Origin: a virus
Virus record (IMG/VR): IMGVR_UViG_3300031521_000117
Coordinates: 1 to 45,388 of that record
DNA: 45,388 nt
Strand: one strand, 5' to 3'
Shown piece after piece: positions 3,058-45,388 of the stretch (position 1 is its first letter; each line of letters begins with the position of its first letter). The translations under genes and the position numbers were made by a program. The notes beneath the pieces were generated by a model that worked only from the letters and a program-made list of their open reading frames with translations, did not search any database and was not told where the DNA came from.

Positions 3058-4263
3058 ATGAGCTCTCCTAAAGTTTTTCTGCACGAAGCGTATAAAAAGA
3101 AAGATGGTACATGTGCTGTCTATGTGCTGGTGCATATCGATAACCGATCAATCAAGTTTCCGACAGGAATTACCGTTGCTCCGGATCATTTTGATCGTGT
3201 GAAAATGAGAATAAAGGGAAACTCTCAGAAGGTAAAGGATGATAACATGATAATTGATAAATCTTTGGCACGGATCAATGACGTGGAGGTTCGGTACCGG
3301 TTGCAACAAAAAGAATTGACGGCTGATTTATTGAAAAAAGAATGGAAAAACCCGGCCAGGCGGGTTGATTTCTTTGCATTTTTTAATGAAGCTATAAAAG
3401 AAAGGAAAAACGATATTGCCGATAGTACATATAACCAGCATCAATCTGCTATCAATAAGTTGAAAGAATTCAGACCTAAACTGGCATTTACTGAAATTGA
3501 CAGTGAATTGATTGAGCAATACCGGCGGTGGCTGAAATCGACGAAAAAGAACGATCTGAACACTATTTATACTGCACTGAAGAATTTCAAAACCTATGTG
3601 AATATTGCAAAGCGTAAAGGTGTGATTGATGAATCACCTTTTGACAGCTATTCAATTCGAAGATCGAATCCGGAACGGGTATTTTTAGATGAAGTGGAAT
3701 TACAATCGCTCTGGAAGTTATATCTGAAGGATTATCTTGACGAAACTAATCAGCGTGTATTACGACACTTTTTGTTTATGTGCTTTACCGGTCTGCGAAT
3801 TTCGGACTTAAAAACGATTACTACTGAAAGTATAATAGGAGATAGATTGGTCTATTTCCCGGTTAAGACACGAAGTATAAAAAAAGAAGCGGTTAAAATA
3901 CCTATAAATATCTGGGCAAAAAAACTGATTTCTGATGAAGGATCAAAAACAGGAGTGCTGTTTAATTGCATTTCGGAGCAAAAAATGAATGTTAAGATTA
4001 AAGATATAGTGGCGGTTGTAAAAATTGCTAAAGACGTGAGCAATCATAGTGCAAGACATACATTTGCAACTCTTTGGCTTCGTAAAACAAAGGATGTGCT
4101 GGCACTTCAAAAGTTACTTGGACATAGTGACATTACACAAACAATGATATATACGCATATCACTGATGGTATGATTGCTGAAGAAATGAAGAATTTTGAG
4201 AATACACTTTTCTTTAACGCAAAAAACCCCGGCTCAGGCACGAGAACCGGGGAAACCATTTAA
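3058..4263 (+). CDS. int: Tyrosine recombinase / phage integrase
   Basis: 401 residues. The N-terminal about 100 residues are the arm-binding domain usual in Bacteroidota integrases (GTCAVYVLVHIDNRSIKFPT). A SAM-like core-binding domain follows (about 103-190), then the catalytic domain with R247 (FTGLR), H330 and R333 (NHSARH), H356 (LLGH) and the nucleophile Y365 (MIYTHI). All active-site residues are present, so the enzyme should be active in integration and excision. The C-terminal NPGSGTRTG tail is encoded by the same DNA that forms the terminator of the opposing late operon (4227-4252). The start ATG follows an A-rich leader directly after the possible attP. Confidence 0.95.
   Translation: MSSPKVFLHEAYKKKDGTCAVYVLVHIDNRSIKFPTGITVAPDHFDRVKMRIKGNSQKVKDDNMIIDKSLARINDVEVRYRLQQKELTADLLKKEWKNPARRVDFFAFFNEAIKERKNDIADSTYNQHQSAINKLKEFRPKLAFTEIDSELIEQYRRWLKSTKKNDLNTIYTALKNFKTYVNIAKRKGVIDESPFDSYSIRRSNPERVFLDEVELQSLWKLYLKDYLDETNQRVLRHFLFMCFTGLRISDLKTITTESIIGDRLVYFPVKTRSIKKEAVKIPINIWAKKLISDEGSKTGVLFNCISEQKMNVKIKDIVAVVKIAKDVSNHSARHTFATLWLRKTKDVLALQKLLGHSDITQTMIYTHITDGMIAEEMKNFENTLFFNAKNPGSGTRTGETI
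4227..4252 (-). terminator. Late-operon terminator overlapping the integrase 3' end
   Basis: On the minus strand CCCCGG, a 14-nt loop, CCGGGG and then TTTTTT. It lies 42 bases after the last late gene (stop at 4294) and within the last codons of the convergent integrase gene, so it should stop late transcription before it runs antisense through the lysogeny block. Confidence 0.75.
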
Positions 4264-36553: not shown

Positions 36554-36768
36554 CTTACTTCGCTTACTTCGCGGGATTAACTGTCAATATGTCAGAATTT
36601 TATATAATAATTTAATCGTTATGCTGCGAAGTAAGTTTTAATAAAAAAAAGTAAGCGAAGTAACTAAAAGTAAGTTGTAGTAACCGAATAACATTATTTA
36701 TGTATAGCTAATTATTTGAAATACAGTAATATAATTAAGAAAAAGTAAGAGAAGTAAGCGAAGTAAGT
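36554..36768. repeat. Iteron cluster: 9-bp GAAGTAAGC repeats (candidate origin)
   Basis: At least nine copies or near copies of a 9-bp unit with consensus GAAGTAAGC: two in reverse orientation at 36554-36572 (CTTACTTCG twice), one at 36627-36635, three to four at 36648-36684, and three head-to-tail at 36742-36768. They lie in a 540-bp AT-rich gene-free stretch (36404-36943) between the replication and late regions. Tandem iterons beside AT-rich DNA are usual at replication origins; they could instead be operators of a late regulator. Confidence 0.55.
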
Positions 36769-38571: not shown

Positions 38572-41500
38572 TTAAAATGGTAAATCATCTTTATACGGAT
38601 CTTTAGGTTCTGGATCTGTTTTCTTTTCAAAATTTATTTTCTCCTGAGTTTCGACCGGTTTTAAATGCGGTTTAAAATCTTCCTGGCTGTTTTCAGGTTC
38701 CCCGCCATTTGTTTCAATCGAGATGTTTAGCAGGTCGTAGTCAAAAATAAAAGCGGTGGTGCTGGTGCGTTTCTTTTTTGAGTTTGTAATTCTTTCGCCA
38801 TTGGGTCCAGTCGATTCAACAATTTCGACTTCCTGCTGTCCTGTTCTGGGGTCTATCTTCTTAAATCCTTCCTTTTTAGTCTCGAATATAAATGCTTTCG
38901 AATTCTTCAGGTAGTATTCAATTGTGCTTTCAGGGAGCGGCTTATCGCCTTCGCGGAGGCATTGGGTTTTGTACATCGAAAATACACGGCTAAGCGTCAG
39001 ATATAATAGGTTCTTTGGCTCTATCCATTTTATAACGTCGGTTTTCCACTTCCCGTTTTCCATCTTGGTATAACTGGCTTCTTTGGCGTATTCAATTTTG
39101 TAATCGCCGCCATCGAACAACAGGTTCGAGCTGGCCAGGTATTCCACAGTTTTCCAGAAATGACCTAAATCATCGTTCTTTTTCATTTCTCCATTTTGCT
39201 GGAGCATCAGTTTCACGGCAAGCTGGATGGTTTCGGTCTTGTCCCAGGGTAATTCAATTTCGTCGGCAATAGTAGCATACGCGGCCATTATCATCAGCCA
39301 ATTGTTAAATACTCGGGTTTCAATTAACTGACCTTTCAGCATTCCTTCCATTTGTATTGAAATTTCGTCGACCTTTTTCGAGTAGTGCTCTTTGAAATAT
39401 GCACGATGCTTTAGTATCTGGTGGGTAATATGAGTTATGCCGCGCTCGTTGATTTCCTTCAGCTCTTCGTACCGGGTATTCTCTTCAGCGCTAAATTCGA
39501 CCTGGAAGAAACTGAGCGCAATAAATCGGGAGAACAGCGCAATATCAGCCGTGGCCATCTGTTGTCCGCAAACAATTACTCCCTGATCTACCGACGTAGT
39601 TTCTTTCTTTTTGTCCTTGTCCATGTTCATCCGGGTGCGTCCGGTACCGTCCCATAAACCCTTCAGAAATTCGCGCTTTTCCATCTCCAGATCATTGCGG
39701 AATTCGTCGAGCAGGCACAGGGCATTCGAACTGGTGGCTACGTGATCGGCCAGAGCGGCCTTACTTGTATTGTGAAGGTTCGGGATCTTCGGAAGCCGTC
39801 CGAAAAAGTGCAGCAGCGATTCAGCACAGGCATTCTTACCGGCTCCTTTGGGACCAAACATATTTAAAATAGGGTATTTTGTAAACCGGCGGACAATGAT
39901 ATCACGGAACAGGCTGGCAAAGTAGAAACTGAGGGCTATTTTCCCGTTGTCGCCATACACTTTGGTGAATTTCTTCACATATTCCCTGAGTGAAATGTTT
40001 CCTTCTACATGTATGAATTTGCGCTCGAATTCGTACAGGTTTTCTTCTCCTGAATAAATGCGCGATGCCGATGGAATGTAGTAATTCACACCATCGTTTG
40101 AAGCAATTCCGTAGCTGTCTGTTTCGGTAAATTTGCCGTTGTAAATTCCATTTCCCCAGATGTACAATCCATCTTTGTGCCATCCCATTTGGCTAACTTC
40201 TTTGGCCGAATTTGTTTTTTCGTACAACCAGGCTTTCAACCGGTTTAAATCGGTTTCCGATCCGGTCCACAGAAAGTTGCCCAGGCTTTCAATTCTCACC
40301 TTGAATGCTGATATCGATACCAGGTCGCGCTGCGGGATCTCGATTACCCTTACCGTACCATGGTTGTTTTTTACCTCGTACAATCGCTTTGCATTCACAG
40401 TACTTTCGATGTGAAAAAGCGGGGTCATGGTGAAATTGCTTTGCTGTTTTGGCGAGCCTTTCGAATCCTGAAAATACATGCAGTTGTGATCGACATAGAA
40501 ACCACGTTCGTAATATTCGTCTAACGAAACATTGGCCGGGATAGCCCTTGATTTCTTAGTTTCAACCGGTGCTTTGTCGGCCAACCATTGTTTAAAATGA
40601 TCTTGCCAAAGCTTTTTCGGCCCTATTATCTTTGAAATTGCATCGAGGTAGACATCATGCTTCGATGGTTCATCATATCGGGTGGCCAGGAACGAAATAT
40701 CTTTAATCAGTTCGGCCTTGTATGCTGGGTTTTGGCTCTTTTCTGAAACATTAATTGTTTTCCAAATAATATAATCAGGTTGTTCCTGGTTCGACTTTTC
40801 GAATGCTGCAATGGTTTTAAATGCTGTGTCAGGATCTTCTTTCTCCTGAAGAATTATCACCGAAACGTGAAACTGTTCCCGGATCAGGATCTCTGCATTT
40901 TTCGACATTGCTTTCTGGCCAGCCGAATCGCCGTCATAAATCAAGGTCACTTTATTGGTGTATTGCTTCAGTAATTTGGCCTGATCGACAGTTAAGGCAG
41001 TTCCGCAGGGTGCCAGGGTGTTCGTTACCCCTATCTGGTGTAATCGGGTCACGTCGAAATTACCTTCAACCAGGTAGGCTTTATCCTCCTTTTTAATTTC
41101 GTTACGTGCCAGGTTCAAGGCAAACAGTTCTTTGCCTTTGCAAAATATGGGAGTGTCGCCGGTATTCAGATATTTAGGAATAGCCTTATCGGTGCTTAGG
41201 GTTCGACCTGTGAATCCTACCACTTTTCCAGACTTGCTGCAAATCGGGAACATGATCCGGTTTCGAAAAGTGTCGTATTCGCGCCCATCTTTCGACTTGA
41301 TCAGATCGGCCTCGATCAGCAAGTTCAATCCAACCGCGTTTTGTTTGGCCCAATTCAGCAGAACATTTCCATCAGGCGCAAAACCGATGGAGAACGGCAG
41401 AATATTGTTGTCGTGCTCCATTGGGGAACTCCCTTCGACTGCTTCGCGCTCAGGGAGCGATGCAGCGTCGCCTGAGTGCGAAGCAATCGAAGGCATAGCG

Positions 41501-42240
41501 GTATTCATGGCAAGCAATGCTTTTAACTGGTCAGAATCAACATCCAAATCAGAAATTAAAACATTCCTGGGCTTTGAGCCATTCAGCGGGCCAACAATTC
41601 CGGCAAGCTCAAGCTGATCAATGATTTTTTCGGCGCGATTGTAGCCAATCGAAAATTTTTTCTGAAGTGCTGATGCCAAACATTTCTGGTTAAATATGAC
41701 AAGTTCGGCAGCTTCGTATAACAATGAATCAAGTTCTACCAGTTCGGTGTTTACAGGTTCAGCCACCGAGGCTTTTACTTTTGCCGGTTCTGTCCATGTT
41801 GACGAAAAAGGATCAAATCCCCGATCGGCAAGATACCTGATTGCTTCGGGACTGGCTTTTAATTGTTCGGCAAAGAATTCAGCGGCTTTCTGACAGGCAA
41901 TCCGGAGCGCTTCTTTGTGCTTGTATTCTTCGTCGTTAAAGTTCGATTTATCGGCGATCCAGGCAAAGTCCAGATTAAGCTTTTTGGCTCCTATTTCAAC
42001 CGCTTCTTTGAATCCGATATTTTGAGACTCCTGCAAAAAGCTGATGGCATCGCCACCTTTGCCACAGCCATAACACTTGTAAATTCCACGGGCTGGAGTA
42101 ACAGTAAACGAGGGTGTTTTTTCGTTGTGAAACGGGCAACACGCCCTGTATTTATTGCCTATTGTTTTCAGTTCAACGTAATTGCCTACAATTTCGGCAA
42201 TATCTTCGTTGATGCGGTCAATGACTTCGCGAACATCCAT
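38572..42240 (-). CDS. DnaG-type primase-helicase with an internal FtsK-gamma-like domain (1222 aa)
   Basis: Domains in order. 1) CHC2 zinc finger, about 33-62: C35, H38, C56, C59. 2) Start of the primase core (RYLADRGFDP, about 135-144). 3) An insertion of about 130 residues: residues 167-233 match the FtsK C-terminal winged helix (LYEAAELVIFNQK, FSIGYNRAEKIIDQLELAGI, VGPLNGSKPRNVL), and residues 252-275 are a palindromic-repeat insertion. 4) The core resumes (LPFSIGFAPDG, 281-291) with the Toprim residues E392 (VEGNFD) and DGD 436-438. 5) A C-terminal ATPase, Walker A GPKGAGKN (796-803) and Walker B LCLLDEF (841-847). It should prime and unwind phage DNA. It is the longest gene of the early region. 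Confidence 0.9.
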   Translation of the reverse strand: MDVREVIDRINEDIAEIVGNYVELKTIGNKYRACCPFHNEKTPSFTVTPARGIYKCYGCGKGGDAISFLQESQNIGFKEAVEIGAKKLNLDFAWIADKSNFNDEEYKHKEALRIACQKAAEFFAEQLKASPEAIRYLADRGFDPFSSTWTEPAKVKASVAEPVNTELVELDSLLYEAAELVIFNQKCLASALQKKFSIGYNRAEKIIDQLELAGIVGPLNGSKPRNVLISDLDVDSDQLKALLAMNTAMPSIASHSGDAASLPEREAVEGSSPMEHDNNILPFSIGFAPDGNVLLNWAKQNAVGLNLLIEADLIKSKDGREYDTFRNRIMFPICSKSGKVVGFTGRTLSTDKAIPKYLNTGDTPIFCKGKELFALNLARNEIKKEDKAYLVEGNFDVTRLHQIGVTNTLAPCGTALTVDQAKLLKQYTNKVTLIYDGDSAGQKAMSKNAEILIREQFHVSVIILQEKEDPDTAFKTIAAFEKSNQEQPDYIIWKTINVSEKSQNPAYKAELIKDISFLATRYDEPSKHDVYLDAISKIIGPKKLWQDHFKQWLADKAPVETKKSRAIPANVSLDEYYERGFYVDHNCMYFQDSKGSPKQQSNFTMTPLFHIESTVNAKRLYEVKNNHGTVRVIEIPQRDLVSISAFKVRIESLGNFLWTGSETDLNRLKAWLYEKTNSAKEVSQMGWHKDGLYIWGNGIYNGKFTETDSYGIASNDGVNYYIPSASRIYSGEENLYEFERKFIHVEGNISLREYVKKFTKVYGDNGKIALSFYFASLFRDIIVRRFTKYPILNMFGPKGAGKNACAESLLHFFGRLPKIPNLHNTSKAALADHVATSSNALCLLDEFRNDLEMEKREFLKGLWDGTGRTRMNMDKDKKKETTSVDQGVIVCGQQMATADIALFSRFIALSFFQVEFSAEENTRYEELKEINERGITHITHQILKHRAYFKEHYSKKVDEISIQMEGMLKGQLIETRVFNNWLMIMAAYATIADEIELPWDKTETIQLAVKLMLQQNGEMKKNDDLGHFWKTVEYLASSNLLFDGGDYKIEYAKEASYTKMENGKWKTDVIKWIEPKNLLYLTLSRVFSMYKTQCLREGDKPLPESTIEYYLKNSKAFIFETKKEGFKKIDPRTGQQEVEIVESTGPNGERITNSKKKRTSTTAFIFDYDLLNISIETNGGEPENSQEDFKPHLKPVETQEKINFEKKTDPEPKDPYKDDLPF
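41431..41494. repeat. Large palindromic repeat inserted in frame in the primase gene (family D)
   Basis: Two 24-base arms (41431-41454 and 41471-41494) are inverted repeats matching at 21 of 24 positions, with a 16-base spacer. Each arm holds the CTTCGA...CTCAGG form of dispersed Bacteroidota repeats. It encodes about 21-24 residues (SGDAASLPEREAVEGS) in the linker after the FtsK-gamma-like domain, without breaking the frame. Confidence 0.7.
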
Positions 42241-45066: not shown

Positions 45067-45264
45067 CTATACATTGTTTTTAGGAAAATCCGGGATCTCG
45101 CTTAAAGTCTTTTGCGCTTCAGCAGTATAAGTTCCGGTCATCCGCATTTGGTAAAATTTCGACTGCAGCAACAGATCTGTTTCAATTAATTCGGTAACTG
45201 AGCAGTTTCGGAGGAATTGTTCCGGGGTCACCTCCAGTGTGAATACTTTATCGAGTTTTGGCAT
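45067..45264 (-). CDS. Small hypothetical early protein (65 aa)
   Basis: 65 residues from the ATG at 45264 (the first bases of the 127-bp overlap); an in-frame GTG 10 codons upstream would overlap the preceding gene's end. PKLDKVFTLEVTPEQFLRNC, then SVTELIETDLLLQSKFYQMR and a polar end. The VTPEQFL.NCS..EL.E.D form is one I associate with small Bacteroidota phage proteins, function unknown. It links the genes at the left end of the window with those at the right end. Confidence 0.65.
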   Translation of the reverse strand: MPKLDKVFTLEVTPEQFLRNCSVTELIETDLLLQSKFYQMRMTGTYTAEAQKTLSEIPDFPKNNV

Positions 45265-45388
45265 AAAAGTTAACTTATATGTTAATTTTTTCACGGATTC
45301 GAAGCTCGTTAACTGATAATAGTATTGGCCTGCCTTTAAACTGGCGGTCGAGTTTTACGCGGTACTGATGCAAACATTTCTGAGGGCT
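45262..45388. repeat. Terminal direct repeat, right copy
   Basis: Identical to bases 1-127. It contains the start of the gene 45067-45264 and the end of the gene at 14-250, so the early operon runs on without a break when the ends are joined. Confidence 0.9.

Follow-up and report, generated by a model that had tools for sequence, protein, structure and literature searches.

An FtsK-type gamma domain was confirmed within the DnaG-type primase of a phage primase-helicase, encoded in the 45,388-nucleotide stretch of viral DNA analyzed here (hereafter, the window). In the DnaG core, the domain follows the first helical hairpin and precedes the remaining part, joined to both by flexible linkers. 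In FtsK and SpoIIIE, gamma is known for sensing the orientation of the chromosome and for activating recombination by Xer. Its presence inside phage primase-helicases of four designs would tie phage DNA replication to the KOPS orientation code.

Domain Structure of the Primase-Helicase

The gene and its domains are located in the window as follows:

38572..42240, minus strand: primase-helicase ORF, 1222 aa (ORF translation; relatives are annotated as DNA primase in Bacteroidota phages)
41965..42225, minus strand: CHC2 zinc-binding domain, aa 6-92 (Pfam Zn_ribbon_DnaG, E 2e-32)
41410..41814, minus strand: insert, aa 143-277, missing in L006 and the other gamma-less relatives (alignments)
41734..41814, minus strand: N-terminal linker of the insert, aa 143-169, predicted to be disordered at about aa 150-165 (pLDDT below 50 at 150-165)
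41554..41733, minus strand: FtsK gamma winged helix, aa 170-229 (Pfam, E 3e-23; pLDDT 90-97 nearly throughout; TM 0.91 to 2ve9)
41410..41553, minus strand: C-terminal linker of the insert, aa 230-277, with a helix at 237-247 followed by disorder at 249-280 (predicted model)
41107..41409, minus strand: DNAG_N, the N-terminal part of the DnaG catalytic core, aa 278-378 (Pfam, E 6e-28)
40825..41076, minus strand: Toprim, aa 389-472 (Pfam Toprim_2, E 7e-18)
38572..40620, minus strand: C-terminal half, aa 541-1222, a DUF927/AAA+ MCM-like helicase (model mean pLDDT 83; Foldseek matches 5dgk and 8tch)
39832..39855, minus strand: Walker A motif GPKGAGKN, aa 796-803 (invariant in a six-sequence alignment)

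The CHC2 zinc-binding, DNAG_N, and Toprim domains detected by Pfam, together with a DnaG fold match in Foldseek, identify the protein as a DnaG-type primase. The AlphaFold2 model of residues 1-540 (mean pLDDT 88) matched DnaG 2au3 with an E-value of 2e-28. No Pfam match to the FtsK_SpoIIIE motor domain was found anywhere in the 1222-aa protein.

Identity and Fold of the Gamma Domain

The sequence-only reading had placed a gamma-like segment at positions 41542-41742 (residues 167-233), and both the coordinates, which lie on the minus strand, and the assignment were borne out. The Pfam family FtsK_gamma (PF09397) was found at residues 170-229 with an E-value of 3.1e-23 and a score of 81.7 bits (cut-off 30.6), covering profile positions 3-62 of 63. 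All matches in a phmmer search of the PDB with this segment were FtsK gamma-containing chains. The fold is the expected winged helix: in Foldseek the predicted domain is closest to the KOPS-bound FtsK gamma 2ve9 (TM 0.91, rmsd 1.3 Å). In the AlphaFold2 model gamma forms a confident separate module, flanked by linkers with pLDDT below 50 at residues 150-165 and 249-280. The sequences nearest to it are Bacteroidota-type FtsK gammas, with identity of at most 58%.

The DnaG core had also been described as split by this segment between two motifs that are ordinarily adjacent. The split itself stands, as DNAG_N begins at profile position 26, at residue 278; the adjacency had to be corrected, as about 8-15 residues separate the two core motifs in ordinary members, for example RNF-SITENEGDNNNFIPF-NIG in L006.

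Distribution of the Insert among Relatives

The insert comprises about 135 aa (residues 143-277) inside the DnaG core, as defined by alignments, and was surveyed in relatives of the primase-helicase taken from IMG/VR. Among the fetched relatives, it was found only in the window and the identical contigs L001 and L004, in L002/L008 (86% identity), in L005 (77%), and in L003/L009 (77%). It is missing from L006 (81% identical), L007 (65%), and the more distant relatives examined. The distance from the zinc motif to the IG.AP motif is 197-223 aa in the gamma carriers versus 82-97 aa in the gamma-less relatives, counting only relatives in which it was measurable; two entries, with spacings of 265 and 973, were dropped as spurious motif matches. 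An assembly chimera was ruled out, as contigs from several metagenome samples, at 77-86% identity, all have the insert in frame. An intein or another self-splicing insert was set aside as improbable, judging by the sequence only, with its charged, proline-rich linkers.

Thus, four related sequences alone bear the insert, and one of them, L009, is decayed in the DNA-reading helix. The window, L002, and L005 retain the recognition helix GYNRA, which is changed to GVKRS in L009, with loss of the Y and N. The motif FDP.S.TWTEP at the left edge of the insert is common to all four carriers in the alignment, which suggests that their insert derives from one event. The core tree nests L006 among the insert carriers; the alternative topology, which bears on gain versus loss, was not rejected (p-AU 0.26). 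The tree of the 60-aa gamma domain, which is too weak to name a donor, sets L009 apart from the other three carriers, and a single clade was not rejected (p-AU 0.54).

The gamma dN/dS is 0.065 for one pair, the window versus L002 (64 codons), compared with 0.03-0.07 for the core. Between the window and L005, gamma is just 56% identical and the core about 83-87%. In the more distant pairs, identity is 33-56% for gamma versus about 83-90% for the catalytic core and helicase. Gamma is dispensable, since L006 has none and in L009 the GYNRA helix is without its Y and N. The relatives with an empty site provide a natural control for the role of gamma.

Gamma Domains in Other Phage Proteins

Scanning of IMG/VR for the gamma motif gave about 390 loci. 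Two overlapping sets of the best 80 were taken and, together with further loci, yielded 150 distinct gamma ORFs; these sets were ordered by how similar they are to the query, with GYNRA required, so counts within them are not frequencies. Gamma was found in four primase-helicase designs, including the DnaG type of the window. In L263, the layout is BT4734-like_N, gamma, PriCT_2, and DUF927 (a BT4734/gamma/PriCT/Cch-like design). In L270, Zn_ribbon_16 and DUF6371 precede gamma, which is followed by a helicase half matching that of the window at 32% (a DUF6371/gamma/Cch-like design). The VapE-type group includes eight loci (L332, L355, L351, L365, L360, L367, L361, and L402) whose helicase domains are VapE-like or DUF5906; seven of the eight were checked by Pfam, and L402 was placed through clustering and alignment only. 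In all eight, gamma follows the primase part and precedes the helicase, in one alignment column, at 31-50% identity to L332. Toprim was found in L367 alone and weakly (E 0.0004, below the Pfam cut-off), and the primase part of this group was otherwise assigned by similarity to phage proteins annotated as DNA primase. The closest named relatives of this group, the primases of Pseudomonas phage U5 and Marinobacter phage PS3, have no gamma. Because the gamma position and the partner domains differ among the four designs, separate grafts would be the simplest reading of these layouts.

The sequence-only reading knew of no described primase of the window's design. No publication on this design was found, and no paper on gamma in a primase was found in the open-licence literature; the presence of gamma in a primase-helicase is not unique to this phage, as others bear it elsewhere in the protein. 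None of 60 records spread over 367 phage-record matches carried a primase annotation.

Gamma was also observed in phage proteins of other types. RdgC-like proteins with a C-terminal gamma were identified by Pfam in L058 and L060, and similar ORFs form the largest cluster, as judged by clustering; no paper on an RdgC-gamma fusion was found. A GapR-like DNA-binding domain is fused to gamma in L082 and L275. A weak match to the DNA polymerase III beta clamp together with a C-terminal gamma was found in L268 and L381, and some Gordonia and Mycobacterium phage matches are also annotated as sliding clamp beta. Very large phage proteins of about 1260-2400 aa, with one gamma each, were found in L064, L356, L391, L375, L380, L387, and L390. 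A 518-aa ORF in L337 has two gamma matches (235-294 and 318-377). Standalone gamma proteins were found as well: one of 93 aa at L135:12232-12510, in a phage whose related primase has no insert, and another short one in L067.

Helicase Half and Candidate Origin

The C-terminal half resembles SCCmec Cch (5dgk, E 1e-13) and SaPIBov1 Rep (8tch, E 4e-13) in Foldseek. It has a DUF927/MCM-like AAA+ fold, and its Walker motifs, GPKGAGKN and L-DE, are invariant among close relatives; DUF927 was detected in 6 of 26 relatives. A candidate origin is located as follows:

36554..36768, no strand assigned: iteron array, a candidate origin, in which units of GCGAAGTAAG in both orientations flank AT-rich DNA (present in relatives with gamma and in relatives without it)

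In the window, this array is 1.8 kb away from the primase-helicase gene. The same array is also present in L002, L005, L009, and the gamma-less L006. In the gamma-less L033, L011, and L010, the array is located directly downstream of the primase gene, about 100-360 bp past it. The origins of SaPIs likewise consist of short repeats just downstream of rep, and SaPI Rep recognizes these iterons via its C-terminal domain (PMC7581432).

Phage-borne KOPS were rejected: no 7-8-mer was enriched in three gamma-plus versus five gamma-minus phages, GGGNAGGG is present in few copies, and known KOPS motifs are rare. This is a weak test, as one site could suffice and the KOPS of the host may differ.

Genome Context and Host

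A terminal direct repeat of 127 bp (positions 1-127 and 45262-45388 of the window) indicates that the genome is probably complete and circularly closed, with a length of about 45.26 kb. The phage is probably temperate, since an integrase gene is present (3058-4263). About 2 kb away from the integrase gene, a tRNA-Met (cat) gene at positions 1075-1148 overlaps a small ORF at the end of the latter; this tRNA gene is a possible attachment site. Two scans of genome contigs detected no prophage, and in 395 genomes from the G004 phylum the matches were mainly to cellular DnaG. From the phage relatives, we infer a Bacteroidota host.

Proposed Role of the Gamma Domain

We propose that gamma serves as a portable, flexibly tethered, sequence-reading anchor of the host FtsK type for double-stranded DNA, a proposal whose chances we consider even; host KOPS, a site on the phage DNA, or Xer may be its target. 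The C-terminal helicase half, shared with the gamma-less relatives, would recognize the origin and unwind DNA, and primers would be made by the zinc and Toprim parts. Meanwhile, the tethered gamma would keep the enzyme bound to KOPS-type sites in duplex DNA, and this anchoring may raise the local concentration of the enzyme or favor one fork direction; DNA binding, choice of sites, and benefit are here what we infer. Points in favor are the family and fold matches of gamma, its dN/dS of 0.065, the retention of GYNRA, the non-equivalent gammas of other primase-helicases, and the fact that its neighbors elsewhere (RdgC, GapR-like, and clamp-like proteins) are all DNA-transaction proteins. Points against are the lack of an enriched 7-8-mer, the absence of gamma in L006, its decay in L009, and the identity of 56% to the gamma of L005. 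The gain of gamma by unrelated phage primases at other positions suggests that it is reused by phages to anchor their replication enzymes. A bolder version, which we hold only tentatively and with more doubt than belief, is that the gamma domain of host FtsK has repeatedly been grafted by phages onto their own primase-helicases as a general address tag, steering phage replication enzymes by host chromosome-orienting sites or Xer recombinases. If true, the KOPS code would have a use that has not been described so far.

Conservation of GYNRA is no proof of DNA binding, since the KOPS-binding surface of Escherichia coli FtsK gamma also binds XerD (PMC5052618). Gamma could be a patch for docking to a protein, either the XerD of the host or a tyrosine recombinase of the phage, bringing the enzyme to dif or att DNA or activating recombination at excision or dimer resolution. 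In E. coli, fusion of the 9-residue gamma peptide RQFRIGYNR to XerC is enough to activate recombination (PMC5052618). The window has KKFSIGYNR and retains most, though not all, of the contacts, with Q in the place of Q1288, K for R1289, and I, G, and N kept after the position of R1292, and the phage encodes a tyrosine-type integrase (3058-4263). However, the contact R1292 is replaced by S, which also occurs at this position in some Bacteroidota FtsK gammas, R1289 is replaced by K, and the N contact is lost in L009. We consider docking unlikely.

Another unlikely reading, with slightly less to recommend it, is that gamma is a tolerated insertion with no selected role that is now decaying. It would account for a domain that is lost or was never present in L006, is decayed in L009, and evolves faster than the core. 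It does not sit well with the low dN/dS between the window and L002, nor with the occurrence of gamma in other primase designs, in one of which its place is fixed across members only 31-50% identical.

The sequence-only reading suggested, among other roles, that gamma could recruit the enzyme to an origin. The iterons are indeed 1.8 kb from the gene, and FtsK gamma reads short asymmetric sites (PMC5052618). Nevertheless, the array is the same in the gamma-less L006, L033, L011, and L010, and since it is alike in relatives with and without gamma, the probable origin is independent of the domain. Moreover, the C-terminal half, which relatives with and without gamma have in common, is similar to Cch and SaPI Rep, self-loading initiator helicases that bind iterons; SaPI Rep does so through a C-terminal domain of its own (PMC7581432). 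By this analogy, the C-terminal half may be enough to account for origin recognition. Origin targeting by gamma is therefore very unlikely. Equally improbable is interference with the host, in which gamma on an abundant phage protein would occupy host KOPS or XerD and hamper FtsK-guided segregation during takeover: the domain is like host-type FtsK gamma and standalone gamma genes occur in phages, but a catalytic primase would be an odd carrier for a decoy.

Comparison with Known Systems

The gamma domain of the window is like those of FtsK and SpoIIIE (PF09397; 2ve8, 2ve9, 2j5o) in sequence family, fold, and the recognition helix GYNRA. In contrast to these proteins, the phage protein has no FtsK motor, and its gamma, flanked by two linkers, interrupts a primase rather than forming the C-terminus. 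With the DnaG-type primases (2au3, 1dd9) the protein has the CHC2 zinc domain, DNAG_N, and Toprim in common, whereas its core is broken by about 135 aa bearing gamma and is fused to a DUF927/MCM-like helicase. The C-terminal half is alike in fold to SCCmec Cch and SaPIBov1 Rep (5dgk, 8tch), although just 11-12% identical to them, and differs in being joined to a DnaG-type primase and gamma.

Among phage proteins, gamma was previously described in the small terminase of the Bacillus phages Sam46 and Sam112 (PMC8190038), likewise a host-like gamma on a phage DNA-transaction protein. There it is an N-terminal fusion on a packaging protein, whereas in the window it is an insertion in a primase. 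The VapE-type phage proteins (L332, L367, L361, L355, and others) also have gamma inside a primase-helicase, but their primase and helicase families are different from those of the window, and their gamma separates the primase part from the helicase.
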